From the IMG/VR virus record IMGVR_UViG_3300025636_000009, positions 1 to 47,234 of that record: 47,234 bases of DNA. One strand, 5' to 3'. Below, one piece after another: positions 13,501 to 45,813 of the stretch. A model generated the notes under the pieces. That model did not search any database and had not been told where the DNA came from. It was given only the letters and a program-made list of their open reading frames with translations. A program made the translations under genes and the position numbers. Each line of letters starts with the position of its first letter. Positions within the stretch are counted from its first letter, which is position 1. The DNA comes from a virus.

Positions 13501-13622
13501 TTTCTGATACAAATGTATGATTTACCGCCAAAGCTGATAACGTCATCTGCAACGTAAGTTCTGCTTGCTGTCCAGTCACCTTGCCAAACAAATCTAATTC
13601 GTCCTAGTTTAAACTCTGCCAT
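1587..13622 (-). CDS. Giant modular adhesion/virion protein, 4011 residues
   Basis: One uninterrupted frame; the longest gene here. Domains in order: seven CBM5/12-like repeats (about residues 10-475), the seventh split by a GTGY-type insert (331-420); a fibre linker (480-512); the first part of a pectin-lyase-like beta-helix (YVGPLGTNE at 522, TYNEILPI at 810, GDELRTSVIQP at 827-837); twelve helical repeats with a C-x-RD-x-GYIIDALxYD motif (672-2690); the rest of the beta-helix (RNMTFNGLLGNL at 2699 to about 2840); YYV-type beta modules (629, 2331, 2603, 3040, 3656); sialidase-like Asp-box repeats (about 3120-3545); the shared STDQDGNFNVGGLF module (3872-3885); and a C-terminus with VPTQRAIKSYI. 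It is paralogous to the 2611-residue gene next to it. It has its own late promoter at 13651-13658. A role in receptor or surface-glycan binding is inferred from the domains. No catalytic residues were identified. Confidence 0.85.
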   Translation of the reverse strand: MAEFKLGRIRFVWQGDWTASRTYVADDVISFGGKSYICIRNHTSSDAFNTDFDSEIPKWEVVSDGTKWRGLWEPEVEYAPGDVVKYGSLVYIAETGHVSATFEAPDFLGLEEDLDNWTPFATSFDWKGDWTTDTRFKINDLVRYGGFVYLCTTAHISAVTAELGLENDQGSWELFSDGLVYLGEWVTATRYKVNDVVKYGGNVFICTAPHTSNDFLTDETNWDVFIEGFQFEDSWNNSNVYQIGDTVTYGGYVYVAKTNNSAAQPTASPLDWEVFTTGFAFQGDWSTLDTYKVGDVVRVGGTTYVAIADSAEQIPPNDTYWSKLNSGINWTNSTETFSQVQGTNSVGSGSGARFDVIKSKTVYTLSVSTGFAGTGYNVNDVILVKGNLVGGTTPANDIEVTVTGATAGEIDTVSHTGYSSTWKTATQYVVGDVVIYGASSFIATATHTAATVNRPDNDLEAEYWNLLTLGSEALSLTTEGDMVYYGNQGPTRLPIGVDGQILRATNGIPDWANYGLVDNVVYVGPLGTNEAAPASGLSIDKPWASVRYALEQVRDGYLNPQSKEILQNNKQFFKKEVTAWLNYTYTVTVTETVSANRQFTTYDTSNLKDGMPIEFDGVDIIGGVVEGQTYYVDAIISSTTFRIAETQGGISFIPTDDTGVMTGKLSYDAAKCERDTGYLVDAMIYDIGRGGTLRTTAVANSYYTEKGNEYISDDLGYQRQQTIEAYEFLKELVADVLNNKKPVSYQSLTGIAIESRAAQIIDLTLTAEAIAKSKAAGLIDIVNVGLEAESNTAIPLPQLPNTTVFIKTGTYNEILPIIIPEYTAIVGDELRTSVIQPQPAIANLATDKNKTTSALNRIKDVSEKLIQNITIAPTSGNTASQRYLNGYGGATTSTQRVDTSVTTTLDILENGLDNVALLPTVGDTPTSGSNNASDSGFANAIAQIEANIDFIIAEQTAWIQAQVDGVIAPFAADFTFDTANCERDTRYILNALRYDLTYGGNFQTTVAARSYFVNGNPVYGTGKKEETLATYTHLKSIVGDVITETAITPTTGNAETQDVEGTAGSAAAETFADTRIQEIFDTIDTDGTLPTPVAPDTTWVSSVLTTVASDVTSAKTTLQNSVIDFINSNYGKFVYDSAKCRRDSGILQEGAAYDVALATNFNAVRNGISYRRGAGEKVLEDQLTETLGAIAEQKTLVAALVSDSTAIARSDAYWDEVLDIIENNTPNALTWGDPGVALKTTARTELQTNRASIITDTVTWIDANYASLPYNETALGLELGYIVDALSYDVQYGGNSATIKSTELFFNEYISKLPTPYYETYAAILEEVATIAATYMTGATEKSEVATLCQIIADVVNAGDVVALPTTTYPDFTWATSPIQADATAVIDDTTVVPAVLQHITDTYSGFVYNHAKCSRDTGYIIDGLEYDVLFNSTYNGTKSGMAYRRAISSAEIVIGEQLEATLGAVDHLRREIRDITSRTTAIGTNISAIKDIVVNNNAPATVITDPTGYDTGFFNARRLVVANKAFIKDEASAYLNTNYNALWAGLSGAEQDAWIADIDELVEAVRYDLTYRGNLETIVRARSYYVDDVFVRPSNQKTASVALKGRLANIINDIATAVSITPSAGNVTAQDTSGTAGSTGAAAFAVDRITEVKNTVDTGILPALIDPSIAWVDSGLQELKGVIDDRRSLIQASAIDYINKLHPALTYDEDKCSRDVGYMIDAIAFDTIFNSNFRSIKAGESYRRGIASTDVVLADQLGPTLDTVDFVQESLKELTIDVDTTIGQANAANEAFDLVKDMTTIIQNGLNSVPPIKFPGPLGHNTDALVDTAYATTSNTTGDTSTYADAAAQLLANRDFISDELQQWLVDPTNGYSSIWTNLSAGAQERCIRDAQFIVDALRYDLTYGGNTQSLVAGSAYYSNFVLTIQNNELQATLAAYARLKEIVSEIIAETSVTTSPGVTETQDTSGTAGNAASIEFAEDRIDDITDYINTAAPNDTIEVATAWQLKEFTTAYERFVDRKDEIVEDVVFWVEKYHQDLSYNQATCRRDVGLIVDALARDIVTGSNFATTKAGMAYYRAIPSALKTLRFEKSATIGAMNFLAEKVRRIALTAPNEAFKQLVTDITSYIDGGALPTPKWVDNNFESNPDIVGASTIWENKEYIAEEAIEFITLNYPEVVYNKDKCRRDTGYIIDALRYDLTFGGEYATTKAVEYYYNGNTLQIGDNELQATLGAYDHVKFIAMSLAANTIDSPGSLQTKIAPKLRDDMQIIGDAGTVSRVEELMTNLYNRLSAEAVTRRSQITVTDIASNVITTSTAHGLVIGSEVIADEVLYIVKTAPTTTSFTLSTYYGGPTTSFEDVTGAGLIWESIATPDLTNVTANFKQQFTNIQGSKAAMQEAVTDYIATKFPTLVYNQAKCERDVGLIIDAVGKDMMLNSNYLTTVAALAYYRGAQADVVIKDQRLATVQAYRELKNFITTYVTGEGASTNYGGRNDNSQAKVRINNLMDIVINITEQGANVTPEFHGTVTYFNDRETINAVDALKANKDFLGSEATAWIKATFGGTVTSLNGSPATASFTSAHNLQLDDPIVFSGTVFGGIVAGTTYYVSSVTSTTDVELTDTPGGESINTFAGGSGTMTASYDFDETACKRDMAAYIDAIVYDLQYPGNYHSLRAARLYVNAVDGSQYSDMFYVRNATGARNMTFNGLLGNLSEKNEFGTRRPTGGAYVSLDPGFGPWDTEAWVTNKSCYVQNVSTFGVGCVGNKIDGALHAGGNRSVVSNDFTQILSDGIGVWCSGNNSLTELVSVFAYYNYAGYIADLGGRIRATNGNSSYGTFGVIAEGTDLGEQPIVADVDNLSQNALVYGIQTDGEQEVLAMEFSNAGTGYTNAQYAISGTGFNAATVADEFRDQALVESRIIDVDNGTTVGGEDYVIAQNVAQGGSPVHITLAATDFALGDAYNGMRVQVTAGTGVGQYGNVINFNNGTKNCTVYKPSFDNLTATATSATGNVITVADTTTLYVDMPVYFDEAIGGLDRGDSPSDVYYVTAIVSGNTFTVSDEVGGTDITLTNTSGQNVTLYAAGFDNVIAGKVAENSLDLTTGYTVEPAITYAKPGFTAASISTADAIDFGPGIYADNRFIAIDGSAGASTNYSLDGTTWATGGALPASANWSDVTFGGGQGATARAVVGGLGGSGAVLTAELGELNSIGLPGPTQIAKVNVVQGGTGYTTPPTIVFTATLGGGGATAVATVKDGAIQNIIITSTGAGYAQAPTVTAATDKLTEVVIETRGSGYESPPTVTISGGGASTQATVIATTENKGITSILIDTDEDDNPLFGEGYTTTPTVQIVDADAKWVAVANGTTTNAYLATNSAANANWTAGNPFTASHYAGITYGEGTFVAVGGTGGAGGAQSSTNGNTWTSRTITTPASGTFSAVRYGAGRFVAINTDGYTAVSINGIIWTEGGNMPSASGTWTSLAWGNGRFVAISTIGEYAISYDFGANWFTVGNTLNNISTTGWTRVAYGQGMFLAVCDGVASCAISADGVTWTEELLSGTASWSTPIFGNPNSVPTWVILTSDANTTANKIKTGAKAIGRCYAEDGTLIATTLLEPGSGYPVGSIVSVTAPNTIELDSTDNMYVGQPITFEGTDLVTAALNSEILYYVSDVTGDTIEVSLLSGGASYSVESILGPDMVGSTFAAGPLVTVTDPSATVDANINPRIRNGVLGQPTFTNRGTGYTSATAELGGDGNADLYQPSTFIAVRNLFELPEPGSNVEFANIPDSYYKLVTISNVIGQEGSYTATLQISPGLDVLKAPKDGTLITTTNKYSQVRLTGHDFLYIGTGNKAQTNYPFVDITTSYIESQQLSSGGGRVFYTSTDQDGNFNVGGLFGVQQSTGTATLDADAFNLAGLQSLQINGLGLGIGSAIVTQFSTDPFFTENSDSIVPTQRAIKSYITAQIGGGQSSLNVNTLTAGTVFIANDEITTTSGGQLNIKAKMNFTGGVDGAPVALGYFLSR
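2988..4265 (-). repeat. Sialidase-like Asp-box repeats (4011-residue protein)
   Basis: Around residues 3120-3545, units of 45-50 residues carry YGxGxFVAV or similar, then a turn such as SxDGxTW or STNGNTWTS. This is the Asp-box/BNR pattern of beta-propeller proteins. The first unit (near 3130-3175) is separated from the others by GTGY-type beta modules (about 3200-3350). No sialidase catalytic Arg triad is apparent, so binding rather than cleavage is the safer reading. Confidence 0.6.
5583..11645 (-). repeat. Twelve helical C-x-RD repeats in the 4011-residue protein
   Basis: Motif copies begin near residues 672, 981, 1140, 1276, 1414, 1558, 1713, 1888, 2046, 2184, 2417 and 2647. The consensus is C-x-RD-x-GYIIDALxYDLTYGGN-x-x-T. 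Two subtypes tend to alternate: one ends YDLTYGGN, the other reads YD-x-x-xNSNF followed by GxxYRRG. The copies at 1276 and 1558 have lost the Cys-Arg-Asp start. Spacing is mostly 136-175 residues. The neighbouring giant protein has a single degenerate copy (SRDAELIIDG near residue 625), so the array looks like a local expansion. I do not recognise the fold. Confidence 0.75.
12198..13595 (-). repeat. Seven CBM5/12-like repeats (4011-residue protein)
   Basis: Repeats of about 50-55 residues follow the pattern W-x-G-x-W, then Y-x-x-G/N-D-x-V-x-Y-G-G-x-x-Y-x-C/A, then H-T-S and a closing W-x-x-[FL]. They start near residues 13, 68, 126, 181, 231, 281 and 422. The pattern resembles the small aromatic carbohydrate-binding fold of CBM5/12 (ChiC-type) domains. 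The family assignment is by eye only. Confidence 0.65.
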
Positions 13623-13658: not shown

Positions 13659-16600
13659 TTATTGTTGTCCGCCGCGTGTAGGATCGACCAATGTCTTCAT
13701 AAAATAAGACATTGCTAGTCCGTCACCAGCCCATCCACTGTTTCCAAATGGTCCGTCAAACATAGCTTTAGTAGGTATCTTAACTTGCCATCCTTCACCG
13801 CCTTCTACTACTGAAGATGTAATAATATCTGGTCCACCTACTTTAACTGTACCTGCTTGTAGCAAGCCTGTAAATGTATCTGCACCACCTTGGCTCAATC
13901 TACTTGCCAAGTATGTTCTAATTGCTCTCTGTGTTGGAACTAAGTTGTTTGAATTAGCAACAAACGTTCCGTCTGTTGAGAACGCATTAATTGTTACTGG
14001 TGAACCACCTAGTGCAACACCGCCAATTGCTAGTTCTGTTAGACCGTCTAGTCCAAACTCGTCAGCACTTAGCGTAACAATACCTGTTGCTTGTTCAACA
14101 GCAAACAAGTCGCCAACTCTAAAGTTACCATCTTGGTCTGTACTTGAGTAGAACACACGTCCATTGTTTGTTTCTTGGATTTCGTCTTGTGGTTCAAGCC
14201 CAGTATCTTCAGGTAGGTCAGGATAGTTAGATTGTTGCTCGTTACCAAAACCAATGTTTAGGAAGTCATGGTTTGTTAAACGTACCTGACTAAATCTACT
14301 ACGTATAGTAAATGGTGTGTTGTGTATTGGCGAGTCTTCTTGATCAACTTGCGGACTTAGCTGTATAATTGCTTCTAAGTTTGGCGTTGTTGTGCCTCTT
14401 AGTGGTGTAGCTGTTGCAACACGATATACTTGATCGCTGCCGTTAAATTGTAAGTTATCACCTGGTCCGGGGAATCTTGTGATATCACTTGCTATTAAAC
14501 GCAGTCCTTCTTGGAACTGATCTGAGAAGCCACTACCTCGCAGCGAAATTCCTGTAGATGTTGTATTATAGCCATTACCAAAGTTTACAAATGTCGGAGC
14601 ACCGAGCGTTCCATTACCTATACGTAATTGTACAAGTGCTTCTTCTGAGTTGTTAGGGTCATTAATTGTAATGTTAGGTCCGAAGCTGTCTTCTTCATAT
14701 CCCGAACCTGGTTCAAACATGCTAATCTTAGTAATAGATTGTCCTGTAATTTCAACGTTTGCCTGTGCTCTAGCACCTCCCGAAATTTTGTTAGCAATAG
14801 TGCCAGTTTCGTCTAAAGTTAAGAACCAACCTTTCTTAGTAGCTGCATCGAATGTAAATCCAATTGTTGCATAATTAGATTCACTGATTATAGGTTGTAC
14901 GTCCCACTGTAAACCGTCATATGATGTACAGCAAATACCTTGAGTGTTATTAATAACAACAAACAACCCTTGTCCGTATTCTAATGCAGTGCCACTTACC
15001 GGAGTAGTTGAGCTGTACCAAGTAACGCCGTCAAAGCTGTATGCTGCTGGACGATCATCTTCAGAAACTGCAACAAAGCGTCCGTTACCATACTTAACTG
15101 TTCTCCAGTTGTTGGCTGTTGAATCTTCGCTAAGGTCTATCTGAGTTTCTATCCAAGTTTCGCCGTTGTCAGTTGACACCACTGCCCAATTACTAGAGCC
15201 GTCAATTGCAACAAATATTTCTTTTCCGTATGCAATATCTCTATAGTCATTAGCAGGTGCTGCTGTTACGTTTACTGTTGTCCAAGTTGAGCAATTATTA
15301 GTCGAATATGCAAATTTCTGTTCGCCGTTTGCAATAGCAACAAATGTACCGTTACCGTATGCAACTGATTGCCAAGTTCCGGTACTTAGTGTAGGTAAAT
15401 CAACACTTAACCATGTTAACCCATCTGACACTGAATATAAACAGTTTTTACCAGTTTCTGATAAAAGGAACCAAGTGCCGTTACCGTAACAGCCGTCAAC
15501 CCAACCGCCGTTTGCATCTGGATTTTCGACAGTAACTTCGGCACCCTCTATCGGTAAGTTAATTTCAGTATCCCATCCTAGATACTCAGTAGTAGTAAAT
15601 ACTCCGGCACCGTATCTCGGTATTGCAATAGGTAAAAATCCGTTTGAAATAATAGTTTGAGGTGTAAATTCTGGAATTCCAACTCCTGTCATTTCTAATT
15701 GATAAAAATCTGGCAGGCTAAATTCTATTCTTGGTAGTACTTCGTATACAGATGTTGAATCAAATGCACTAACTAGTGGGAAGCCAGGATTGATATGATC
15801 CCATCCTACTGCGTTGATCTGCATTGAGCCTGTCTCTTCTATAAGAGAAACATCTACTACTCCGCCTTCTTCGTCAGTAATAGTAATTTCAAAAATTGAT
15901 CCTGCCTCAAACTTATCTTTAACATAGTATGTTGTACTCGAAGTTATGCCGCCAAATATTTCTGTAAAAAATGAGCCTTCCATTAAGTCGCGTCCTGCTT
16001 CTAAAGGTTCTTTACCACCTGGAGAAGTGCCAACAATTGACCCAGTTGCATTTGTTAATATCGATTCACTAGTTGCCGATCGAACAATAACTTCGCCAGT
16101 GCTTGATGTTAATGCCACTGCTGCGCCACCGGGTGTTGCAGAAATCGTAAACGAAGTAGCATCGTTGACAACCTGTATATAGTATACTGTGTCGCTTACT
16201 ATTCCACCAAATGTAATACCTGTAAACATTATAGGGTTTCCAGCTATAAATCCAGCAGTACTAGTAACTGTAATCAAATTAGTAACTGCTTCAGTTGTTG
16301 TTGCTATTGTATTAACTAAAGCACTTGTGATTGTAAAGTTAGTTCCGTTAATAATTTCTTTTACATAATACCTTTGTTTGTCTTGTATTCCACCAATTAC
16401 ACCATCTTTAAATATAATAGCATCTAAGGGATTAAATATCGAAGTATCTGATATTGTAAGTGAATTATCTGCAGAAGAAGTAGCTGTTACTGTTACTTCG
16501 CGTATTGCTGTAGATATTGAAAATTTATTGTTTTCATATACATCGTGAATGTAGTATGTATCACCTAATTCGATGCCGCCGATTGCTCTACCTGTAAACT

Positions 16601-19600
16601 GAATTGGCAATGTTACTTCCATGTTATCAGTAGTGCTTGCTTCTAAGAAGCTAGTACCATCTGGGTAGTTTAGTGTAAATGTCGGAAATCCCTGGAACTC
16701 GTCTACTGCATCCTCTACATTAACATTAGTTAATGGCCATACTGCGCCGCCTAATGATGTAGATAACTGAATGTCAGTGTCGTCGACAACATCAATAATA
16801 TAGTAATCGAAGTTTGTAATTACGCCGCCGAATACCGGTCCACTAAAGTTAACTTTTTGTCCTACTCGCAAGCGTTCTGTAGTGGTAACAACCATTGTGT
16901 TGTTTAAGTCACCTCGTGTGCCAACCACAGTAACTTGGCTTTGTGAGCTAGATATTACATCAATATTATATGTTGTCGGAGTAAACGTAATTGCTTGATC
17001 TGTATACAATCTATGGAAGTCTGCTCCAGAACCTAATAATAGTCTGTTAGAAACAGCGTCTGCTGCTACTACTTCTTGCTGACCAAACGATTCTTTAGTT
17101 ATGCTAGCAAACTTAGTTATAGGATCGTAGTTTGAAATAATACCATATTGTCCTGCACCTTTACCTGATGATACACTTAGTCTCATGCCTTCATATTCGG
17201 CTGCTGTTGACACTTCTGACTGTGCAAGCACTAAGTATTCTCTATTGCCGCCTTGTGCGTTGTTTGATTGGAAATTGTATCCTAATCCGCCTTTTCTAAT
17301 AATAGTACTTTCTAATATTCTACTTTGATAAATTGATCCAGAACGTAATTCGTTTGCAATTACTCTTGCATCTTTACCTGCACCTTGTACAAGCACATTT
17401 GCATAAGAAGTTGGAGTATTTTCGTATGTCTCTAAGAAAAATGACATAGCGTCTCCAATTTCTATCTGAGCTCCGTAAATGTTAGTGTACCCTTGGATGC
17501 CGTCAATTCCACGAGGATAAATTTTAAATTGCAGTTGAGTATTTTGGGCTGTTTCGTCAACAATAGTATATTGTATTCTCCACCAGCCGTCATCTAAGAA
17601 ATTTGCTTGTAAATTAAATGGCTCGCCAATACCGTCTGCTAGTGTTTGCGTAGTTACTTCTTCAGTAGCAAAGTTAAATCTTGCATACAAAGTTCTTTGG
17701 GCAAATCCGCTAAAGATGTTATAGAAGTCAATATAATTAGCAGTGCCTTGCTTTACATGCACACTAACAGTATAAGGTAATGCGCTGCCTGTAGGAACTA
17801 TTCCATCTGCATCAATTCCTGAAATTGCAGTAATACTCAAGTCTTGAACAGTAATAGTAATGTCGTTTTCTGGTGATCGGCCGCCAAAGCTTCTTCCGTC
17901 TAGTGTAATTTCATTACCTACAACGTAGCCGCTGCCAGAGTTATTAATAGTAACATCATATCTTTCACTAAACACAGTAACATCAAACGTTGCATCAATA
18001 CCAGAACCGCTAACGTTTGTTCCTGCTATATTAGTATATGTTCTGCCTTGAGGCGACAATGTTACATTTTGCGAAATATAAGAACTATCTGTTAGTGATG
18101 TATTTGCTGTTACTTTCCAAGCAAATTCACCGTCGTACGGCGTTGTATTTGCACGTACAATGCTAACTTCGCCATCTGACTGCCAGCTTGCAGCTAACAA
18201 GTTGTTTGATTGCTTTAATAAGTTAGTAGTTTCTGTATAATATTCTTCGCCTGCATGTTCGTATTCGATTTTTAATACTTCTGATTGTGCTCCGAGTGCA
18301 GATACCGGTCTTGCAACAGCATCGTTATTTCTGTTATTTACAGTACCAGTTGCTGGTACTTCAGCAATGTCAAAACCTTCTGCAACACAACCAAATGTAC
18401 CGTAAGAACTGTTACCATTTGTTGCACGTATCCTTGCACCGTCTTCTGCAAAGTAACCTGCATAGTTGTAGTACGAGAATACAGATACACATTCTGTTAG
18501 TGCGTCACCGCCTCTGGCCCATATCCCAATTCCGTCTGAAATAATTTGTGTAAAGTCGTTTGATACCATCGAACGATTGCCGCCATTGTGTAATGTACTA
18601 TCAATCTTACAACCTGTACATCCTTTACCAAATGTAGTAACGTTTTGTATATATGGCGAACGTGCAGTGATCCAAACACTAGTGTCGTCTGGTCCTTCAC
18701 CTGGATCAAAGCCTACATATGCACCACCTGTCGGGCGTCTTGTTAGGTATTCGTTTTCAACTGATAGTGTCCCTAATAAACCTTTAACAGTCATGTTACG
18801 CACACCGCAGTCGTTGGTTACTTGAATCATATCTCCAAGTGCTTCGCCGCCGTATACATACATTGCGCCGATGTTAGTTGTTAGTTCAACAGCCGGTCCG
18901 TCTAGTACTTCTGACACACTAAATGTAGTATCAGTAATTGTACTGCCTATTACATAATAAGTCTTGCCAGGTATAACATCACCAATTACTGTACTAATAT
19001 CTTCAACTGGGTTTAATGATACAAACTGTACAGGTGTGTTGTTCTCCATGTTAACTGTTGAGCCAACAATAAACTGATTAATAAAGCCCAATGTTCTTGT
19101 ACATAATGTGTTAACAGGTGCTGCTGGCTGAATAGTTGTTCCGCGAAGTTCGTCACCGTTTAATGCTGTGTTAGGTGGCATTTTAATAGGAAGTCTTTCA
19201 TTGTATGTACCAGACTTAATATTAATTGTAGAATAAGTACCTTGGTTCTCTGGAGGCACACTTGAAGGCGATCCAGCAACAAATGCATCTAATAAAATTC
19301 TTTCTAATGCTTGTACAAATGTAACAGCATCATCTTCAATAGTAATGCCATTATTAAAATACTGTGCTACAGGATTTTCAACGCCTTCGAGCACTTGGTA
19401 GTTTTGTGCAGGCGCAGTATTTGTAATTGCTAGTTCTATGTTACTAAACAACTCAACAAAGAATGCTATAAAGAACTCAGCTTGTTCTGCTACGGTAGCA
19501 TTTGTAAATTTGTTTGTACTTTCTAAATCAAAATAAGAAAGCGTTGCTCTAACTGTTTGTGCGTTGCCTCCTCGTTTTACATCGCGAATCACACCGTCAA

Positions 19601-21494
19601 TGATTAGTTCTGCATCTCTAGATGTTTTTTCGTTATCAAAGTTATAAGACTGGTCAAATGGTACAATATTTTGATTTTGCTGATACAAAAACCAGTAAAA
19701 AGTTTGTTGAACAATCCAATCTTTGTTTTGCTCAAGCATTAGCTTTGCGTTTTGACGCAGTGTACCTAGTTTTACTCTTTCACAAGCATACTTAATTGTT
19801 TTCCAAGCTGTGTCTGGAGTAGTACCATTAGTAGGTAAGTCTTCTCCATTAGTTGCAACATAATACACGTTTGGAGTAAAGTCGATATCACTCCAAGTCG
19901 GTAATCCGTTTACAACTTTAAGAACGTTACCGTCGGCGCCTGTTGCTAACGGAGCATTGTTTTCTCCGTCAAAAATAATCATTTCGCCAAACTCGCTAAG
20001 AGTATTTCTCTGATCGTGTTGCAAGTATAATGACCAATATGCGTTTTGTAAATCATTATCCGGACGTGATACAAATGAAGACGTATGCTCTCTAACAGCT
20101 CGATAAGTAGCATTCTTCCAGTAGATAACGTCATCTAAATTGTATAATGTACCGTCGGACCATTTGCCTTCCCAGTTAAACCCTGGAATTAATAATTCCC
20201 AAATTCCTGTTCTTGCTCCTGAGAATGTTAGTACTGCTTCGTCTGAAATAGGACCGTCTGGTGCTTCGTTAAGAATAACAGTAGCATACATTGATGCGTT
20301 AGATGAGTCGTCGTCATAACTAACTGATTCAACAGTTTGACCTCTACTAAATCCTTCGCCGGTAACAGTCATACCAACTGTAATTAAATCAGATGCAACA
20401 GAATCTCCTAAGTTTACTTGAATGCGTGTTCCGCTCGAATTTTCTGCTTCATATGGTGCTTGAACTGTAAAGTTACCTGGATTTTCGTTAACACTATCTA
20501 CTAGTGCAACATATAAATCTCCGCCGTATCTTACTACGTTACCTACTTTAAATTCTGTAGCACTGTCCCATGTTCCTGCAATTTCATATGCTTCTGTAAT
20601 TAGTTCCCAAGCATCAGTAGAATCATCGCCGTAATTTGTTGACGGAGTATTTCCGATATTGTTAATAACTTTAGATTGGAATAAGTATCCACCATACTGT
20701 ACAACATCGCCTGGTTGGTAAATTGCATTAGCATCGAATACGCCGTCAAAGTCTAAACCAGGTAGCCATTCTTCCCAATATTCACTAATAAATGTTTCGT
20801 ATAACTCTGTACTGTCTGCAAAGTCTACAAATTCAGCACTTGGAGCATGACCCCAAATACAACGGTACAAACTTGGTCCGTATTTTACAATGTCATTTAG
20901 TTTATAACGAAGCTGACTGCTATCTTCTGAGTCAGTAGCATACACGCCTCTCCAAGATACACCGTATTGTAATAATTTCCAATATTTTTCTGTACTGTCT
21001 TCTACGTCAGTATAGTCGGCTTCTAAACCTTCTAAATCAGTAGCAGCAGAAACATGTGACACAATACATTCGTAAACCGAACCGCCGTAGTTTACAATGC
21101 TACCTACACCATATGTAGTACTTGATGTCCACTCACTTGCCCAAGTTTTAGACTCCGCATAAACGTCCCACTTGTCAATATCTAAATCAAGCACTGCACC
21201 ACTTAAATGCTGTTCGTTACACTTATAAACAATACCACCGAAAATAACAATGTTATCAAGTGCATATTGTGTTAATGGTTCCCACGGGCCTTTCCAAGTT
21301 TGGCCAGTCATCATCAATTCCCACTTAGGTTCAGCTGCGCCTAAATCGCTATAGAAATTATTTGAAGTATGTGGTATTAAACATACATATGCTTTACCGT
21401 TGAACTGTACAATTTCATCTTTGTTGAAGAAAGTCTGATCTCTCCAAGGTCCTGCCCAACTAAAGCGCAATCTACTAATTTTAAATTCTGACAT
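13659..21494 (-). CDS. Giant modular adhesion/virion protein, 2611 residues
   Basis: A paralogue of the 4011-residue protein. Domains in order: seven CBM5/12-like repeats (10-490), the sixth split by an insert at about 340-430; linker; beta-helix (YVATNGEDLP at 545, TYNERLPI at 763, GDELRGTTIQP at 780-790, then RNMTVKGLLGTL at 899); one degenerate helical repeat (625); a carbohydrate-binding-like domain (about 1086-1360) with a GTGY-type domain nested inside it (1150-1237); several YYV beta modules (846, 1563, 1646, 1708, 1770, 1855); five Asp-box-like repeats (1995-2200); the shared STDQDGNFRVGDLF module (2451-2464); and VPTQRAIRTYL near the end. ATG start with AGGA 10 nt upstream. A late promoter lies 29 bp upstream. 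A virion-surface adhesin role is inferred. It has no visible signal peptide or membrane segment. Confidence 0.85.
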   Translation of the reverse strand: MSEFKISRLRFSWAGPWRDQTFFNKDEIVQFNGKAYVCLIPHTSNNFYSDLGAAEPKWELMMTGQTWKGPWEPLTQYALDNIVIFGGIVYKCNEQHLSGAVLDLDIDKWDVYAESKTWASEWTSSTTYGVGSIVNYGGSVYECIVSHVSAATDLEGLEADYTDVEDSTEKYWKLLQYGVSWRGVYATDSEDSSQLRYKLNDIVKYGPSLYRCIWGHAPSAEFVDFADSTELYETFISEYWEEWLPGLDFDGVFDANAIYQPGDVVQYGGYLFQSKVINNIGNTPSTNYGDDSTDAWELITEAYEIAGTWDSATEFKVGNVVRYGGDLYVALVDSVNENPGNFTVQAPYEAENSSGTRIQVNLGDSVASDLITVGMTVTGEGFSRGQTVESVSYDDDSSNASMYATVILNEAPDGPISDEAVLTFSGARTGIWELLIPGFNWEGKWSDGTLYNLDDVIYWKNATYRAVREHTSSFVSRPDNDLQNAYWSLYLQHDQRNTLSEFGEMIIFDGENNAPLATGADGNVLKVVNGLPTWSDIDFTPNVYYVATNGEDLPTNGTTPDTAWKTIKYACERVKLGTLRQNAKLMLEQNKDWIVQQTFYWFLYQQNQNIVPFDQSYNFDNEKTSRDAELIIDGVIRDVKRGGNAQTVRATLSYFDLESTNKFTNATVAEQAEFFIAFFVELFSNIELAITNTAPAQNYQVLEGVENPVAQYFNNGITIEDDAVTFVQALERILLDAFVAGSPSSVPPENQGTYSTINIKSGTYNERLPIKMPPNTALNGDELRGTTIQPAAPVNTLCTRTLGFINQFIVGSTVNMENNTPVQFVSLNPVEDISTVIGDVIPGKTYYVIGSTITDTTFSVSEVLDGPAVELTTNIGAMYVYGGEALGDMIQVTNDCGVRNMTVKGLLGTLSVENEYLTRRPTGGAYVGFDPGEGPDDTSVWITARSPYIQNVTTFGKGCTGCKIDSTLHNGGNRSMVSNDFTQIISDGIGIWARGGDALTECVSVFSYYNYAGYFAEDGARIRATNGNSSYGTFGCVAEGFDIAEVPATGTVNNRNNDAVARPVSALGAQSEVLKIEYEHAGEEYYTETTNLLKQSNNLLAASWQSDGEVSIVRANTTPYDGEFAWKVTANTSLTDSSYISQNVTLSPQGRTYTNIAGTNVSGSGIDATFDVTVFSERYDVTINNSGSGYVVGNEITLDGRSFGGRSPENDITITVQDLSITAISGIDADGIVPTGSALPYTVSVHVKQGTANYIDFYNIFSGFAQRTLYARFNFATEEVTTQTLADGIGEPFNLQANFLDDGWWRIQYTIVDETAQNTQLQFKIYPRGIDGIQGYTNIYGAQIEIGDAMSFFLETYENTPTSYANVLVQGAGKDARVIANELRSGSIYQSRILESTIIRKGGLGYNFQSNNAQGGNREYLVLAQSEVSTAAEYEGMRLSVSSGKGAGQYGIISNYDPITKFASITKESFGQQEVVAADAVSNRLLLGSGADFHRLYTDQAITFTPTTYNIDVISSSQSQVTVVGTRGDLNNTMVVTTTERLRVGQKVNFSGPVFGGVITNFDYYIIDVVDDTDIQLSTSLGGAVWPLTNVNVEDAVDEFQGFPTFTLNYPDGTSFLEASTTDNMEVTLPIQFTGRAIGGIELGDTYYIHDVYENNKFSISTAIREVTVTATSSADNSLTISDTSIFNPLDAIIFKDGVIGGIQDKQRYYVKEIINGTNFTITSALVNTIATTTEAVTNLITVTSTAGFIAGNPIMFTGITFGGIVSDTVYYIQVVNDATSFTISATPGGAAVALTSSTGEVIVRSATSESILTNATGSIVGTSPGGKEPLEAGRDLMEGSFFTEIFGGITSSTTYYVKDKFEAGSIFEITITDEEGGVVDVSLIEETGSMQINAVGWDHINPGFPLVSAFDSTSVYEVLPRIEFSLPDFYQLEMTGVGIPEFTPQTIISNGFLPIAIPRYGAGVFTTTEYLGWDTEINLPIEGAEVTVENPDANGGWVDGCYGNGTWFLLSETGKNCLYSVSDGLTWLSVDLPTLSTGTWQSVAYGNGTFVAIANGEQKFAYSTNNCSTWTTVNVTAAPANDYRDIAYGKEIFVAIDGSSNWAVVSTDNGETWIETQIDLSEDSTANNWRTVKYGNGRFVAVSEDDRPAAYSFDGVTWYSSTTPVSGTALEYGQGLFVVINNTQGICCTSYDGLQWDVQPIISESNYATIGFTFDAATKKGWFLTLDETGTIANKISGGARAQANVEITGQSITKISMFEPGSGYEEDSFGPNITINDPNNSEEALVQLRIGNGTLGAPTFVNFGNGYNTTSTGISLRGSGFSDQFQEGLRLIASDITRFPGPGDNLQFNGSDQVYRVATATPLRGTTTPNLEAIIQLSPQVDQEDSPIHNTPFTIRSRFSQVRLTNHDFLNIGFGNEQQSNYPDLPEDTGLEPQDEIQETNNGRVFYSSTDQDGNFRVGDLFAVEQATGIVTLSADEFGLDGLTELAIGGVALGGSPVTINAFSTDGTFVANSNNLVPTQRAIRTYLASRLSQGGADTFTGLLQAGTVKVGGPDIITSSVVEGGEGWQVKIPTKAMFDGPFGNSGWAGDGLAMSYFMKTLVDPTRGGQQ
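14895..15512 (-). repeat. Sialidase-like Asp-box repeats (2611-residue protein)
   Basis: Residues 1995-2200 hold about five units with YGNGxFVA-type strands and turns such as SVSDGLTW, STDNGETW and SFDGVTW. The pattern matches Asp-box beta-propeller blades and is shared with the 4011-residue protein. Confidence 0.6.
17415..18239 (-). other. Carbohydrate-binding-like domain with nested insert
   Basis: Residues 1086-1360 of the 2611-residue protein begin with LLKQSNNLLAASW and end with IYGAQIEIG and an SYANVLVQ tail. This is the layout of a jelly-roll ligand-binding domain often found in phage fibres (N-terminal NLLxxSN, later W-x-R and GAQxE). A module of about 87 residues (1150-1237; GTNVSGSGIDATF to NDITITV) interrupts it between two beta-strands. 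The interrupting module resembles residues 331-420 of the 4011-residue protein. Confidence 0.5.
20025..21467 (-). repeat. Seven CBM5/12-like repeats (2611-residue protein)
   Basis: Repeats start near residues 13, 67, 118, 181, 249, 305 and 441, with the same W-x-x-x-W / D-x-V-x-Y-G-G-x-x-Y pattern as the 4011-residue protein. The sixth copy is interrupted by an unrelated beta-rich insert of about 90 residues. Confidence 0.65.
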
Positions 21495-21523: not shown

Positions 21524-21531
21524 TATTTATA
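21524..21531 (-). promoter_or_regulatory. T4-type late promoter for the 2611-residue gene
   Basis: An exact TATAAATA on the minus strand, 29 bp before the ATG at 21494 and overlapping the last codons of the 125-residue gene upstream. Confidence 0.75.
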
Positions 21532-39351: not shown

Positions 39352-39359
39352 TATTTATA
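39352..39359 (-). promoter_or_regulatory. T4-type late promoter for the gp67-like/21/22/23 operon
   Basis: An exact TATAAATA on the minus strand in the 99-bp gap before the gp67-like gene, 53 bp from its ATG. It would drive the whole core-protease-capsid operon down to the terminator at 35359. Confidence 0.8.
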
Positions 39360-40393: not shown

Positions 40394-42157
40394 TTATATT
40401 GTTACATCATTAGGTTGACCAGCTGCTGGTGCACCAGCATTACCGAGACTATTGCCAGTCGATGTATCAGGAGGTGGTGCTTCGCCGCCATCAACACCGG
40501 GTTCGTCACCAGGTACTTCTGCATCAAGGCTGTCTAAATCTGACCCAATTGCAGATGAACTTATACCAACACCTCTCATTTCAGCAGCAGCATCAGCTGT
40601 GCTCCTATCTAATGTTTCGTCATTTTCTTCTCGCCACAAACGTTCATTTTCTGCAATTTCTTCTGCACTCATTCCTAAGAAGCGTGACATTGCAAATCTA
40701 TTTGAAATGTACGGTATTGCACTCATTTGTGTGTATGTTGGTACACGAGCATTATCAAGTTCTGCTTGTCGATAACTTGCAAAGTTTTGCGGAGCTTCAA
40801 AACCAATATCAAACATATTAGTGTCGATATTAATACCTTTTGTAAGAATATATCTTTTGAATTCTTGATTAAGATTTTCAATTAATAGTCCTTGCAAACG
40901 TTCGCAGTAAGTGTTAAATCTTAACTCTTGGATGTAAGCGGTTCCGACTCTGCCATCGTTATATGAACTAGCTCCGTCATCTGCACCTGTAGGAAGATAA
41001 GAGGAAGGAATTCGTAAACCGCGTACAAGCTTATTAGTAAAGTAACGTAAATCATCAATCTCTCCTAAGTTAGTACCGCCCGGAAGTGTTTCTACTTTAG
41101 ATCCACGTCCTTCTGCTGTTTGAGGGAAGAAGTAATCTTCGTTGATTGACAGAGGATTGTATGACGAGTCTATGACATTCGCTCCTCCTCCTGTTGACGA
41201 TGGGATACGTCTTTGATGTATTTCCGTTTTTACACGTTCAACAAATTGCATAGCAAGGTGTGATGGCATGTTACCCACATCAACGTAGAATACTCTGCGC
41301 TCAGGCGCACGTTGTACTCGATAGATGATAATAGCATCTTCGAGTAATTCTTTTTGTTTGTAAACTTTAAAAATAGTTTCTAATAATGAATTACCAAATG
41401 GAAAGTTATTGTCTAAGCCTTCAGATAAACTTAGATGCACAATGTGTTCTGCTGATACTGCTAGCTCACCGTCATCTAAACTAAATCTAGAACCTGGAGG
41501 ATTAGCTCCTCCGCCTGTCATTCCCCTTGATCCGCCTGTTGGTTGATATTGTCCTCCATGCGGATTAGTTATATTTCCGTTAGTTTGATGAGGAGTTGTT
41601 GCAACTAGATCTCTAAAATTAAAGTTTACATTTTTTATAATGTATTGTTCCGCAACTTTTCCTTCACTTTCATTAACAATAATGCGTGTTACATTTGCAG
41701 GATCAATATGAAACAGTTTTTTAGTTTCTGGATCTCTTAAGAAAAATTGATCACCATACTTAAAGGTATTTCTTAAAATTCGAAACATTCTAGTTTCAAA
41801 TTTTTGTATTTTACACCACTGTTTTAGGTATTGACCTAAAATATTAATTTCGTTATTAGTTGCATTTTTATTGAAGTTAAACTTAAAGTTAGTTTGATTT
41901 GAATCATTCTTCTGTGTGCAAAATTCAGCAAGGATATCTAATGCGGCATTAACTTCCGAATCCATATCCATTGTATTATATTGTCCGTAACGATCAACAC
42001 GATTCGGAGCACCAACGTAAACGTCTGGAAGATAAGAACTATAATTAGACCTAGCTGGACCAGCATTAAGTCCTCCTCGATTACTTCCGAGAGGACTATA
42101 AGACCCTGATATATTATTTTCTGTGTTTACCGGTGTAAAAAATTTCTTCCAGCTCAT
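40394..42157 (-). CDS. 20: Portal vertex protein gp20
   Basis: T4-type portal: a dodecameric ring at the unique head vertex through which DNA is packaged and the tail attached. The conserved motif VQRAPERRVFYVDVGN lies at residues 281-296, after the helix LLEDAIIIYR. A Gly/Pro-rich loop (about 200-222) and an acidic, Gly/Pro-rich C-terminal tail (about 535-587) flank the core. At 587 residues it is somewhat longer than T4 gp20 (524). Start ATG overlaps the tape-measure stop (TAATG), with AAGGA 8 nt upstream. Being coupled to a tape-measure gene rather than to gp19 is unusual. Confidence 0.94.
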   Translation of the reverse strand: MSWKKFFTPVNTENNISGSYSPLGSNRGGLNAGPARSNYSSYLPDVYVGAPNRVDRYGQYNTMDMDSEVNAALDILAEFCTQKNDSNQTNFKFNFNKNATNNEINILGQYLKQWCKIQKFETRMFRILRNTFKYGDQFFLRDPETKKLFHIDPANVTRIIVNESEGKVAEQYIIKNVNFNFRDLVATTPHQTNGNITNPHGGQYQPTGGSRGMTGGGANPPGSRFSLDDGELAVSAEHIVHLSLSEGLDNNFPFGNSLLETIFKVYKQKELLEDAIIIYRVQRAPERRVFYVDVGNMPSHLAMQFVERVKTEIHQRRIPSSTGGGANVIDSSYNPLSINEDYFFPQTAEGRGSKVETLPGGTNLGEIDDLRYFTNKLVRGLRIPSSYLPTGADDGASSYNDGRVGTAYIQELRFNTYCERLQGLLIENLNQEFKRYILTKGINIDTNMFDIGFEAPQNFASYRQAELDNARVPTYTQMSAIPYISNRFAMSRFLGMSAEEIAENERLWREENDETLDRSTADAAAEMRGVGISSSAIGSDLDSLDAEVPGDEPGVDGGEAPPPDTSTGNSLGNAGAPAAGQPNDVTI

Positions 42158-44700
42158 TATCCTAGTCCTTTAAATAGGTTTCCCGATAGTCCGCCTATCG
42201 ATCTTAATTGCTTGGTTGCAACTCTATTGCCTTGTGCTAATTGACCTGCCATACCGCCCATAGTACTATTTAACTGTTCTGCAATTTCTTTGAAGCCTTC
42301 TTGATTACCGCTCGATTGCATTTTTTCAATTGCTCCTCTAAAGTTAGATTGCATTTCTCCTAGGGCACTTATCATAGGAGAAAGATCAATATCTTGCGAG
42401 TTCCGACTTGAATTTGCAGTTACATTATTCATCGATGTTGTAAAAGATGTTGACAAATTTTCTAATTGGCTTGCTACTGTGTTGCCACGGCCTCCTTCGA
42501 GTGCAGTACTAAATGTAGTATCTAAACTTTGTAGCAACTGGGATAATGACGATGATGCTGATCTTGCAGACTCTGAAGACAATGCTGAGTTCATCCCTCT
42601 TGCCATATTTGTTAATTGTTCTTCTGTAATAACACCTTCTCGTCCGTGTAATTCTGTTAAAGTTCCTTGGCCAAAATCTTCAAGTAACGACCCAACTGCT
42701 CCCAAACTTCCCCCGCGTCTACCTTCAGTAACATTAACAGTCCTAGCAGTAACACTCATATTGCTTACAACATTTTGCAATTCTTCAGCTAATCTAGCAG
42801 GCGACATTGATTCACCGACGTCAATAGCTGCTTCTACTCTTCGATTTAATCGTTGTTCAGTTCTGCCAGTTGCTTCTGCAACCATATCAAGTAAATCGTC
42901 ATAACTCGAGTCTCGTATTATTCTGTCAACAAATTCAGCTAAACTTACTCCGGCTTCACTTGCTTGCTCTTCTAATCTTTCTCTCAGTGCTCCAGCTTCG
43001 ACATCATTTAACAAGGTGCTTACAAGTAACATAGATGATTTTGCTTGTTCTTCATTGTATGAAGCAGCATTAGCAAGCACAGTTTCTGCAACAGTTGTGT
43101 CTGCTGCTTGATCTTCAGAAGTGCCTTCTCTAGGTCCTTCTGGTCCTGATGGTGCTGGATCTAATCCAAGCTGTTGCCCAATTGAATTAATTAGCCCTGT
43201 AACGGATTCGTTTATTGCTTGCGGTGTAAGGCCAGTTTGCATAAAGTCTGCAAAATTTCTAAATTCAGTTTTTAGAGCTGTCATTTGTCCATTAGGTCCT
43301 ATTAGTCCTTCACTAATTGCAGCACCTAAATTTTTAATTTGTAATTCTGTTTGGACTATGCCTCTTCCAAGTTCTTGACCGGCTGTTCTATCTTCTCCAG
43401 GACCTCTTCGTGCATCGGCTTCAGCTGCAACTTGATCTCTTGCAGCTTTTACAGCATCAGCATAACTCATGCCTTCTTCCATAAATCTCGAAATTGCAGT
43501 TTCGTATTGACCTGCATTTTCTAACATAGTTGCAGCCGCTTGTCCGTATTCGTTGCCTGCACTAGCAAGCATAGCTGTGTCTAAAAAGTTTGGATCTTGT
43601 ATTCTTTGAACAATTGCAGCATTCATATTAGTAATCATTCCGTCAACAGGAGTCATTGGACTATTAGCAATTGTTCTAAACACAGCCTGTGCATCATTAG
43701 CTGCACCACCAAGTGCAACAATACCTGCTCTAGCTTGCTCAGATCTTACGCCGCCCAATACAAATGTTTCTTCAAGTGCAGCCACTGCATCTGGGCCTGC
43801 CATTTGTGCATTAGTCATTGCTTCAGCATACGATGCTCTAGCTGCGGCAGCAGCTTCCTTGCCTTGCTCCATTTCAATTTTACGAAACTTAGCTTCAACT
43901 TGACCTTTACGCATAGAAGCCATCATTTCTTCTTGAATAGCATCTTTTTGTTTGCCGGTTAGTTTAGCCATTGCATCCATTTCTTCTGCTAATGACATTG
44001 CAGAAGCTTGCGTACTTTGTCTTACTTTTTCGTCTTGCATGTTTTGACGTTGTTGAATTTCAGTCATCAACATTAAATTTTCATTTATTTCTTCAGTTGT
44101 CATGCCCATATTCGTCAGACGTTGAGCATAACCTTCCGATGCTTCAAAAAATTCTTGACTCATTGTTGTAAACAACCGTGACCCTTTGTTTACAGTTCCA
44201 CCTAGGGCAGCTAGAGATTCTGAATTAGAAGCAACCATCCCAGAAAACTCGTCTAATGTCATTCTTGTTTGTGCTGCTGAATTTTTTAATTCAAATAGGT
44301 CGGCAGCAAATCCGCCACCAGAACGACTTAAAGTCCTAAAAGAATCAGTAACATCCTCAACATGTGCAGTAATACCTTTAGCTGCACCTAGTAATGTACT
44401 AGAAAGACCAGAAGTATTAGTTGCAAAATAATCTAATGCTGTACTAACCCTAGCTGTACCATTATATGCTTGTGCTGCAAAGTCAACTAAGCCGCCAGCA
44501 CCTACTGTTGCAGCTGACACAACACCTTGCATTGCACGTGATGCTAAACTAGCATTTTCTCCAGCAGCACCGAGATTTCCAGCTAACGAACCTGCGCCTC
44601 CGGCTGCACCCCCGACTGCTCTAACTAAGCTGCCTAATGTGCTTTCTGTTGCGATGTTGTCGATGTCAACCTGATCGCCTGAGATTCTAATAGTGGCCAA
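42157..44700 (-). CDS. Tail tape measure protein
   Basis: An 847-residue, mostly helical, Ala/Gly-rich protein. It has an N-terminal Gly/Ala stretch (28-70), a long coiled-coil middle (200-300, with EEMDAMAKLTGKQKDAIQEE and similar), and the LHGREGVIT motif at 684-692 that is typical of phage tape measures. It should set tail length and be ejected into the cell; T4 gp29 is the functional equivalent (590 residues). No upstream in-frame ATG exists. The frame begins with TTG at 44698-44700 preceded by AAGGA 9 nt away, giving ATIRISGDQVDIDNI. It has a late promoter 44 bp upstream and stands head-to-head with the gp26-like gene. Confidence 0.85.
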   Translation of the reverse strand: MATIRISGDQVDIDNIATESTLGSLVRAVGGAAGGAGSLAGNLGAAGENASLASRAMQGVVSAATVGAGGLVDFAAQAYNGTARVSTALDYFATNTSGLSSTLLGAAKGITAHVEDVTDSFRTLSRSGGGFAADLFELKNSAAQTRMTLDEFSGMVASNSESLAALGGTVNKGSRLFTTMSQEFFEASEGYAQRLTNMGMTTEEINENLMLMTEIQQRQNMQDEKVRQSTQASAMSLAEEMDAMAKLTGKQKDAIQEEMMASMRKGQVEAKFRKIEMEQGKEAAAAARASYAEAMTNAQMAGPDAVAALEETFVLGGVRSEQARAGIVALGGAANDAQAVFRTIANSPMTPVDGMITNMNAAIVQRIQDPNFLDTAMLASAGNEYGQAAATMLENAGQYETAISRFMEEGMSYADAVKAARDQVAAEADARRGPGEDRTAGQELGRGIVQTELQIKNLGAAISEGLIGPNGQMTALKTEFRNFADFMQTGLTPQAINESVTGLINSIGQQLGLDPAPSGPEGPREGTSEDQAADTTVAETVLANAASYNEEQAKSSMLLVSTLLNDVEAGALRERLEEQASEAGVSLAEFVDRIIRDSSYDDLLDMVAEATGRTEQRLNRRVEAAIDVGESMSPARLAEELQNVVSNMSVTARTVNVTEGRRGGSLGAVGSLLEDFGQGTLTELHGREGVITEEQLTNMARGMNSALSSESARSASSSLSQLLQSLDTTFSTALEGGRGNTVASQLENLSTSFTTSMNNVTANSSRNSQDIDLSPMISALGEMQSNFRGAIEKMQSSGNQEGFKEIAEQLNSTMGGMAGQLAQGNRVATKQLRSIGGLSGNLFKGLG

Positions 44701-44725: not shown

Positions 44726-44733
44726 TATAAATA
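44726..44733 (+). promoter_or_regulatory. T4-type late promoter for the plus-strand gp26-like gene
   Basis: An exact TATAAATA on the plus strand, 31 bp before the ATG at 44765. Confidence 0.75.
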
Positions 44734-44752: not shown

Positions 44753-44764
44753 GTAGGAAAAAAT

Positions 44765-45592
44765 ATGACTCCTAATCCTTTAGCAAAACATTTTAGGCAA
44801 CCTAAAATTTATCTGTCGTTGCCAAGTCTTGGAAAATTTTATCCCGAAGGTTCGTTAATTGGAGACCCTAGCAGCTTGCCGGTGTTTGGCATGACAGCAA
44901 TGGATGAGATAATGTTAAAAACACCTGATGGATTATTTTCAGGTGAATCAGTAGTACAAGTAATTAAAAGTTGCATTCCTGACATTGTCGATCCGTGGAG
45001 TATGCCAACAATTGATCTTGATTCTATTTTAATTGCAATTAGAATTGCAACCTATGGCGGTAAAATGCCAATGACCTATAAATGTAAAAAATGTAAAGAA
45101 GAAAATCATATTGACTTAGATTTATCATCTACTCTTGATTATTATACATCTCTTACTTACGAAGACTACGTTTATTTAGATCCTTTAAAGATTAATTTAA
45201 GACCGTTAACTTATAAAGAACAAACTGACGCTGCTAAACGACAGTACGAGTATGAACGTCTTCTTACAAGAAGTTATTCAGACATGCCTGAAGAAGAGAA
45301 AAATAAAACTGTTACTGAAATTTTAAAACAGCTATCTGAGTTAACAGCATCTACATATAAAAAATGTATCGATTCTGTCGAAGCTGACGATACTCTAGTT
45401 GATAATGAAGAACAAATTGCTGAATGGATTCAAAATAGCGATGCATTGTTTTTTGAAACAGTTAAAGGTCAGTTAGAAAAATTATCCAAAGAATGGCGCT
45501 TACAAGATCAAAAATCAGTTTGTGGCGCATGCGAAACAGAAAACACTGTTAACATTAATTTGGACTATTCAAGTTTTTTCGTTCGCAATTAG
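44765..45592 (+). CDS. 26: gp26-like baseplate hub / tail assembly protein
   Basis: A 275-residue protein resembling the T4 gp26 group (the T4_baseplate family as I recall it): N-terminal KIYLSLPSLGKFYP, then FGMTAMDEIMLKTPDGLFSG and PTIDLDSILIAIRIATYGG. A split zinc ribbon is visible: C107 and C110 (CKKC) with C253 and C256 (CGAC). The ATG has TAGGA 6 nt upstream. It is the only well-supported plus-strand gene in the window. The last codons run through TTTTTTC (45574-45580) and stop at 45590-45592, while an open -1 frame continues beyond. Position next to the tape measure is what is expected for a tail assembly chaperone of the lambda G type. That functional parallel is inference. Confidence 0.85.
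   Translation: MTPNPLAKHFRQPKIYLSLPSLGKFYPEGSLIGDPSSLPVFGMTAMDEIMLKTPDGLFSGESVVQVIKSCIPDIVDPWSMPTIDLDSILIAIRIATYGGKMPMTYKCKKCKEENHIDLDLSSTLDYYTSLTYEDYVYLDPLKINLRPLTYKEQTDAAKRQYEYERLLTRSYSDMPEEEKNKTVTEILKQLSELTASTYKKCIDSVEADDTLVDNEEQIAEWIQNSDALFFETVKGQLEKLSKEWRLQDQKSVCGACETENTVNINLDYSSFFVRN
45574..45580 (+). promoter_or_regulatory. Slippery heptamer T TTT TTC for -1 frameshift
   Basis: In the gp26-like frame the codons are AGT TTT TTC, so the heptamer T-TTT-TTC has the ideal X-XXY-YYZ form. After a -1 slip both tRNAs re-pair on TTT. Only three sense codons remain before the 0-frame stop. I see no strong stem-loop just downstream and no upstream Shine-Dalgarno, so a stimulator is not obvious. 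Confidence 0.75.
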
Positions 45593-45813
45593 TTTCAATC
45601 CCGGACTCTGAAATCTTAGAATTAGTTGACGATCTAGAAAACAAAACTAAACAAATTAAAGACGAAGTTTACAGAATTGCATGGTACATGCGAGGAGGAG
45701 TAACTTCTGAAGATTTATTTTGGAAGTACAGTGTTGAAGATAGAGAAATAATTAATAAAATTATCAAAGAAAATATCGAAGCTACTAATAAATCAGGAAT
45801 ACCACTAGTTTAA
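45580..45813 (+). CDS. -1 frame extension of the gp26-like protein (GT-type fusion)
   Basis: The -1 frame is open from 45559 to the TAA at 45811-45813 and encodes 77 residues past the slip site (RSQLVSIPDSEILELVDD, then YRIAWYMRGGVTSEDLFW, then REIINKIIKENIEATNKSG). No ATG, GTG or TTG occurs in frame between the slip site and the Met in WYM (45688), so it has no start that would keep its conserved-looking first half. It looks like real coding sequence: helical, charged, with a clean C-terminal motif. Frameshifting would give a fusion of 349 residues. In other tailed phages the long form of the tail assembly chaperone is made this way. It may correspond to the gp51-type partner of T4. Coordinates mark only the extension. 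Confidence 0.75.
   Translation, partial: RSQLVSIPDSEILELVDDLENKTKQIKDEVYRIAWYMRGGVTSEDLFWKYSVEDREIINKIIKENIEATNKSGIPLV

Follow-up and report, generated by a model that had tools for sequence, protein, structure and literature searches.

A probable programmed -1 frameshift at a conserved T6N heptamer in gp26-family genes of T4-like phages

Introduction

How is a reading frame expressed that opens inside the end of another gene, in the -1 phase, and has no early start codon? This question is raised by the 3' end of a gp26-family gene in the viral DNA analysed here (the window: the whole stretch of 47,234 nucleotides of IMG/VR record IMGVR_UViG_3300025636_000009). A sequence-only reading of this DNA had proposed that the second frame is joined to the gene by programmed -1 slippage, beside a tape-measure-like gene, as in the G/GT pair of phage lambda. 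In lambda, the short chaperone coats the tape measure and the rarer long form recruits tube subunits, and a 2016 review described G-T frameshifting as conserved in long-tailed phages 'except T4' (PMC5009743). For T4 itself, gp26 and gp51 have been classed in a review as hub assembly chaperones, gp51 being essential, of unknown function and not in the final particle (PMC3004832).

Materials and methods

Homologous loci came from isolate phages and from two IMG/VR searches, one with the window protein as query (80 loci, identity down to 31%) and one with a cyanophage gp26 (80 loci). The 180 loci in which the gene end was present gave 97 non-redundant loci, which were scored. The scored set comprises the window's marine relatives, Atu_ph07, Phosso, Cassandra/PA5oct, XaC1, BF, RaK2, CBB, 121Q, PHA46, Vibrio 2.275.O, SCTP-2, RAS14, XacN1, the cyanophages, DLP6, S13, Moby, AS-szw, D490 and Bakedbeans. 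The heptamer-less loci of T4, phiAS4, CBA120, D510 and GXN1 were handled apart, outside the 97. RNA folding was scanned in 60-base windows along the locus for three locus sets (cyanophage, window and jumbo), with z-scores taken against dinucleotide shuffles.

Results

The features of the locus and its surroundings in the window are as follows.

42157..44700, minus strand: gene of an 847-aa tape-measure-like protein, so called from position and synteny; divergent from the gp26-family gene and adjoining the portal gene
44726..44733, plus strand: TATAAATA, a T4-type late-promoter-like -10 element upstream of the gp26-family gene
44755..44758, plus strand: AGGA, the likely Shine-Dalgarno sequence of the gp26-family gene, read directly
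44765..45592, plus strand: gp26-family gene, whose 275-aa 0-frame product is the predicted short form (TAC-N, lambda G-like)
45574..45580, plus strand: slippery heptamer T_TTT_TTC in X_XXY_YYZ phase
45580..45813, plus strand: -1 frame encoding a 77-residue C-terminal extension (TAC-C, lambda T-like) with its TAA; predicted fusion of about 349 aa
45583..45632, plus strand: possible downstream stimulatory stem, with arms at 45583-45595 and 45619-45632

The gp26-family gene ends in TCA AGT TTT TTC GTT CGC AAT TAG, where the TTT and TTC of the heptamer are 0-frame codons and the stop comes three codons later; direct reading thereby confirmed the phase and place of the heptamer as they had been proposed. 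Read from the heptamer in the -1 phase, the sequence becomes TTT TTT CGT TCG CAA TTA and remains open up to the TAA at 45811-45813, with a product of FF followed by the 77 residues RSQLVSIPDSE...SGIPLV. The claim that this 77-codon frame lacks an early start was upheld as well: its first ATG, GTG or TTG is an ATG at 45688 (index 38 counted from the heptamer), which falls inside the conserved WYMRGG core of the extension and has no Shine-Dalgarno sequence ahead of it. TTTTTTC as such is not enriched in the window (13 found, 15 expected). Slippery heptamers of the pattern XXXAAAN/XXXTTTN occur in phase 40 times in the window's genes, just one of them being T6N, that at 45574-45580, and the open -1 frame at this heptamer spans 79 codons, the next longest among the 40 being 25. 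A one-base indel, which the sequence-only reading had raised against itself, is not the cause of the frame break, since a separately assembled contig with 99% protein identity (L011), which differs by one base beside the stop, independently shows the same arrangement.

A T-run in the correct phase was found throughout the family. TTTTTTN stands in X_XXY_YYZ phase at 97 of the 97 scored loci, as TTTTTTC in 92, TTTTTTT in two, TTTTTTA in two and TTTTTTG in one. The other Phe-Phe pairs of the same loci (n=260) have the form T-TTT-TTN in 20 cases (8%), and TTT-TTC is the rarest spelling among them (29/260). At L179-L182, the second Phe codon has become Leu and the T6 run is retained, which indicates that selection keeps the nucleotide run and not the amino acids. 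Across the scored loci, 0 to 14 codons separate the heptamer from the 0-frame stop, the -1 product measures 54 to 82 residues, and the -1 frame is open in all scored homologues but that of Synechococcus phage S-SCSM1. Judged from these alignments, the conserved T_TTT_TTN arrangement is not due to chance, and the expectation that heptamer and open -1 frame would be kept while their surroundings vary was strongly borne out.

The -1 frame is also under purifying selection. Beyond the overlap, its pN/pS in the near clade is 0.45, where the other two frames have 0.95 and 1.56; in the remaining groups the -1 frame has 0.46, 0.39 and 0.13 (the last in cyanophages), with values from 0.92 to 3.49 for the other two frames across all groups. 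In Pseudomonas phage Cassandra (L002, PA5oct group), the whole 75-codon -1 frame contains not one ATG, GTG or TTG.

Elements that might stimulate frameshifting were seen on both sides of the heptamer, and they differ between lineages. In all three locus sets, the folding scan revealed a dip restricted to the 60-base window that starts 11 nt away from the heptamer's first base. The mean z there is -2.10 in the window set, -1.69 in the jumbo set and -1.62 in the cyanophage set, with values around -0.3 along the rest of the locus. In the near clade, a 12-bp stem lies downstream, with 82.5% of cells paired and no slid register above 55%, and its covariation score is 0.376 against 0.192 for shuffles (0/500); the stem in the 78-residue subgroup (alignment A2) had no covariation support, and in the window itself the downstream stem is weak (z -0.17). 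The cyanophage loci (L103-L182) carry a Shine-Dalgarno-like GGAGG/GAGGG 13-15 nt before the heptamer, with a mean duplex energy of -6.96 vs -1.88 in the gene body and a strong match in 84% vs 12%, and no such element precedes the heptamer in the window and jumbo sets. An upstream Shine-Dalgarno-like element is a known type of -1 stimulator, and the cyanophage element looks like a lineage-specific one.

Several lineages depart from this arrangement. In phage CBA120 (L183, ~3290-3330) and 15 kuttervirus relatives from IMG/VR (L190-L204), ATT TTC ATT TAA stands in place of the heptamer; over these loci and Vibrio phage D510 (L189, ~3175-3215), the replacement takes the form (G/A)ATTTTCATT[TAA] or ACTTTTCAAG[TAA]. 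All of them retain an open -1 frame that encodes the conserved extension, and because it is open although the heptamer is replaced, another slip site or mechanism is suggested. S-SCSM1 (L094, 3678-3874) has kept the heptamer, and its -1 frame closes after six codons; its extension lies in the +1 frame with an ATG of its own at 3710, and compared with the relatives this looks like an 11-nt insertion. A -2 shift, separate translation or a sequencing error are possible explanations of that sequence. Streptococcus phage vB_SagM-GXN1 (L099, 3640-3950) has no heptamer, and its +1 frame is open across GAA TTC TTT CGT CCC CGA; in its divergent relative L205 (33% identity), T_TTT_TTC is present and the -1 frame is open. 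The sequence-only reading had counted a second frame with its own start, or loss of the heptamer in relatives, against slippage. The former was found in S-SCSM1 alone and the latter in the CBA120 group, D510 and GXN1, that is, only at the edges of the family.

The 275-aa protein matches PF12322 (T4_baseplate) at 4e-17, with 63.1 bits against a curated cut-off of 24.5, and phrog_150 at 8.8e-21. Matches to PF12322 and phrog_150 were likewise obtained with T4 gp26 (208 aa) and with T4 gp51 (249 aa), which are therefore paralogues. At the slip-site position, T4 gp26 has the C-terminus KEFFELL without a heptamer, and gene 25 begins immediately. The C-terminal segment of T4 gp51, which is in frame, aligns to the cyanophage -1 product (hhalign E 1e-3, residues 208-244), and such a segment is present in several other T4-type gp51 proteins too. 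As gp51 is thus a paralogue with an in-frame extension, T4 has one gene for the short form and another for the long form. T4 genes 26 and 51 belong to the same Pfam family as the window gene, but they are two separate, divergent genes with neither heptamer nor frameshift. The proposal that the gp26/gp51 pair is made by slippage consequently holds for the relatives and fails for T4, where two paralogous genes are present and the gp51 extension is in frame. Among the extensions compared, the cyanophage one alone matches T4 gp51; profile comparison linked the window's extension neither to the cyanophage extension nor to the gp51 C-terminus, and for this reason we do not claim homology of the extensions across all groups.

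The gene order places the gp26-family gene beside virion genes. On the other strand lies a T4-type portal gene (PF07230, 9.9e-108), whose best phage matches are in PA5oct-group and Phosso phages at ~50% identity. The 847-aa virion-type gene adjoins the gp26-family gene in conserved synteny, in divergent orientation and in a separate operon. Unlike its neighbours portal and gp26, the 847-aa protein had no match by tblastn in 50,697 phage records, which suggests that its gene is fast-evolving or has been replaced. Its syntenic counterpart in phage CBB is CBB_251, which is among the best-covered virion proteins with 29 peptides; no entry for CBB_250, the homologue of gp26, occurs in the displayed portion of the virion mass-spectrometry table (PMC5259590). 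The PA5oct record likewise carries ESI-MS/MS notes on the portal and the neighbour and none on the gp26 homologue. From position, synteny and the CBB virion data, the 847-aa protein is probably the tape measure. The element TATAAATA occurs at three sites in the window, 21524-21531 (-), 39352-39359 (-) and 44726-44733 (+), a count not above chance, and each of the three directly precedes a gene and lies on the coding strand of that gene, as T4 late promoters do. The structural region also holds two very large open reading frames, 1587-13622 (-) of 4011 aa and 13659-21494 (-) of 2611 aa.

AlphaFold2 modelled the short form with a pLDDT of 92 and the extension as helical with a pLDDT of 85. Foldseek searches with both models gave no convincing solved or viral relative, and PDB sequence searches gave nothing relevant. 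VIA-align of the short form with the HK97 chaperone 2OB9 (Z 4.8, rmsd 3.8, 88/107 residues, rank 50) was at background level, and with the extension model no chaperone was among the listed matches.

Discussion

The frame at the end of the gp26-family gene is best explained by programmed -1 slippage beside a tape-measure-like gene, as originally proposed, given a heptamer at 97 of 97 loci and an open -1 frame under selection. We put the probability at roughly 0.9 that the locus is a tail-assembly chaperone pair of the lambda G/GT kind, made from one gene by -1 slippage, where both the slippage and the chaperone role are deduced from sequence. The majority of ribosomes would translate gp26 to the TAG and yield the short form of 275 aa. 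With the Phe codon UUU in the P site and the Phe codon UUC in the A site, a minority would slip by -1 on U_UUU_UUC, re-pair with UUU UUU and continue with CGU UCG CAA into the helical extension of 77 residues, which would bring the long form to about 349 aa. If the pair works as G and GT do in lambda, many short forms might coat the tape measure, probably the divergent 847-aa protein, a few long forms might recruit tail-tube subunits, and both would depart before the virion is completed.

Could the -1 frame be a small gene in its own right, with a start codon that is reached by re-initiation or through a ribosome-binding site of its own, and no fusion be made? Many genome records do annotate it as a short open reading frame of its own; in L001, L003 and L048 the gp26 stop and an ATG share the sequence ATGA, which could permit re-initiation, and in S-SCSM1 the -1 frame is closed and the extension has its own ATG in another frame. 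However, the first start in the window comes only at index 38 and Cassandra lacks one altogether, the conserved part of the extension starts at the heptamer, and an in-phase T6N at every scored locus would be unneeded, so that we regard a separate gene as very improbable. A fusion could also arise if the RNA polymerase, and not the ribosome, slipped on the T6 run. Bacteria and phages are known to show such transcriptional slippage, and the locus does provide a homopolymer run, but six residues are short for slippage of a bacterial RNA polymerase. Moreover, transcriptional slippage needs neither the strict T_TTT_TTN phase nor the downstream RNA structure nor the Shine-Dalgarno-like element of the cyanophages; as these are hallmarks of ribosomal slippage, we prefer the latter and give the transcriptional route even less credit than a separate gene.

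The least probable explanation is a sequencing or assembly error or a decayed gene, by which one open reading frame would have been split by an indel or the second frame would be debris. The window is a single metagenomic contig, which leaves room for such an error, but L011 and many isolate genomes have the same frames, and the -1 frame is under purifying selection. As an account of the family as a whole, indel error or decay is ruled out by the conserved frame break.

Programmed ribosomal slippage thus being preferred, the locus can be set beside known systems. The lambda slip sequence is GGGAAAG, and the window differs from lambda in its T_TTT_TTC and in its divergent gene order. The likeness to gpG/gpGT consists in one gene with products of two lengths, a slip near the stop and a position adjoining a tape-measure-like gene (PMC5009743). 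The sequence-only reading knew of no such frameshift in T4-like phages, and this part does not stand. Vladimirov, Gautam and Davidson reportedly identified the tail assembly chaperones of T4-like phages in 2022. According to two papers that credit their work (Virology 566:9-15), poly-T sequences are known -1 signals in T4-like TAC-N genes (PMC12846349), and some T4-like phages have a short gene and a longer fused gene with no frameshift (PMC10274946). On the credit given there, the -1 slip in T4-like chaperones is already known. The T4-like TAC-N/TAC-NC system resembles the locus in the gp26/gp51 family (PF12322) and in the alternative of a short and a longer fused gene, as far as the citing papers describe it, whereas in the window the gene is divergent from the tape-measure-like gene. 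In the Vandenendeviridae/Andersonviridae (phage Adele), a different phage group, the 3' end of TAC-N likewise bears a T run with a conserved -1 slip, the motif there being GTTTTT (PMC12846349). No account of a -1 slip in RaK2-like phages or cyanophages was found in the limited library searched, which is weak evidence; the breadth across lineages, the lineage-specific stimulators and the exceptions are possibly new.

We tentatively suggest, with more doubt than confidence, that much of the T4-like myoviruses, including the RaK2-like jumbo phages and the marine lineage of the window, inherited one ancestral T6N slip site, whose stimulators may have been swapped between lineages (a Shine-Dalgarno-like element in cyanophages, a stem elsewhere). 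Exits from this state might then have been taken by duplication of the T4 type, by a loss that removed the heptamer and spared the -1 frame (CBA120 group, D510), by a separate start or -2 shift (S-SCSM1) and by an apparent +1 shift (GXN1).

If slippage operates as proposed, the annotation of a very widespread gene would have to be corrected, since the 'gp26 baseplate hub' protein and the next open reading frame, currently labelled 'hypothetical protein' or 'gp51 baseplate hub assembly catalyst', would be the two ends of one chaperone in most such phages. The lineages without the heptamer would then represent natural experiments on the gain and loss of slippage.
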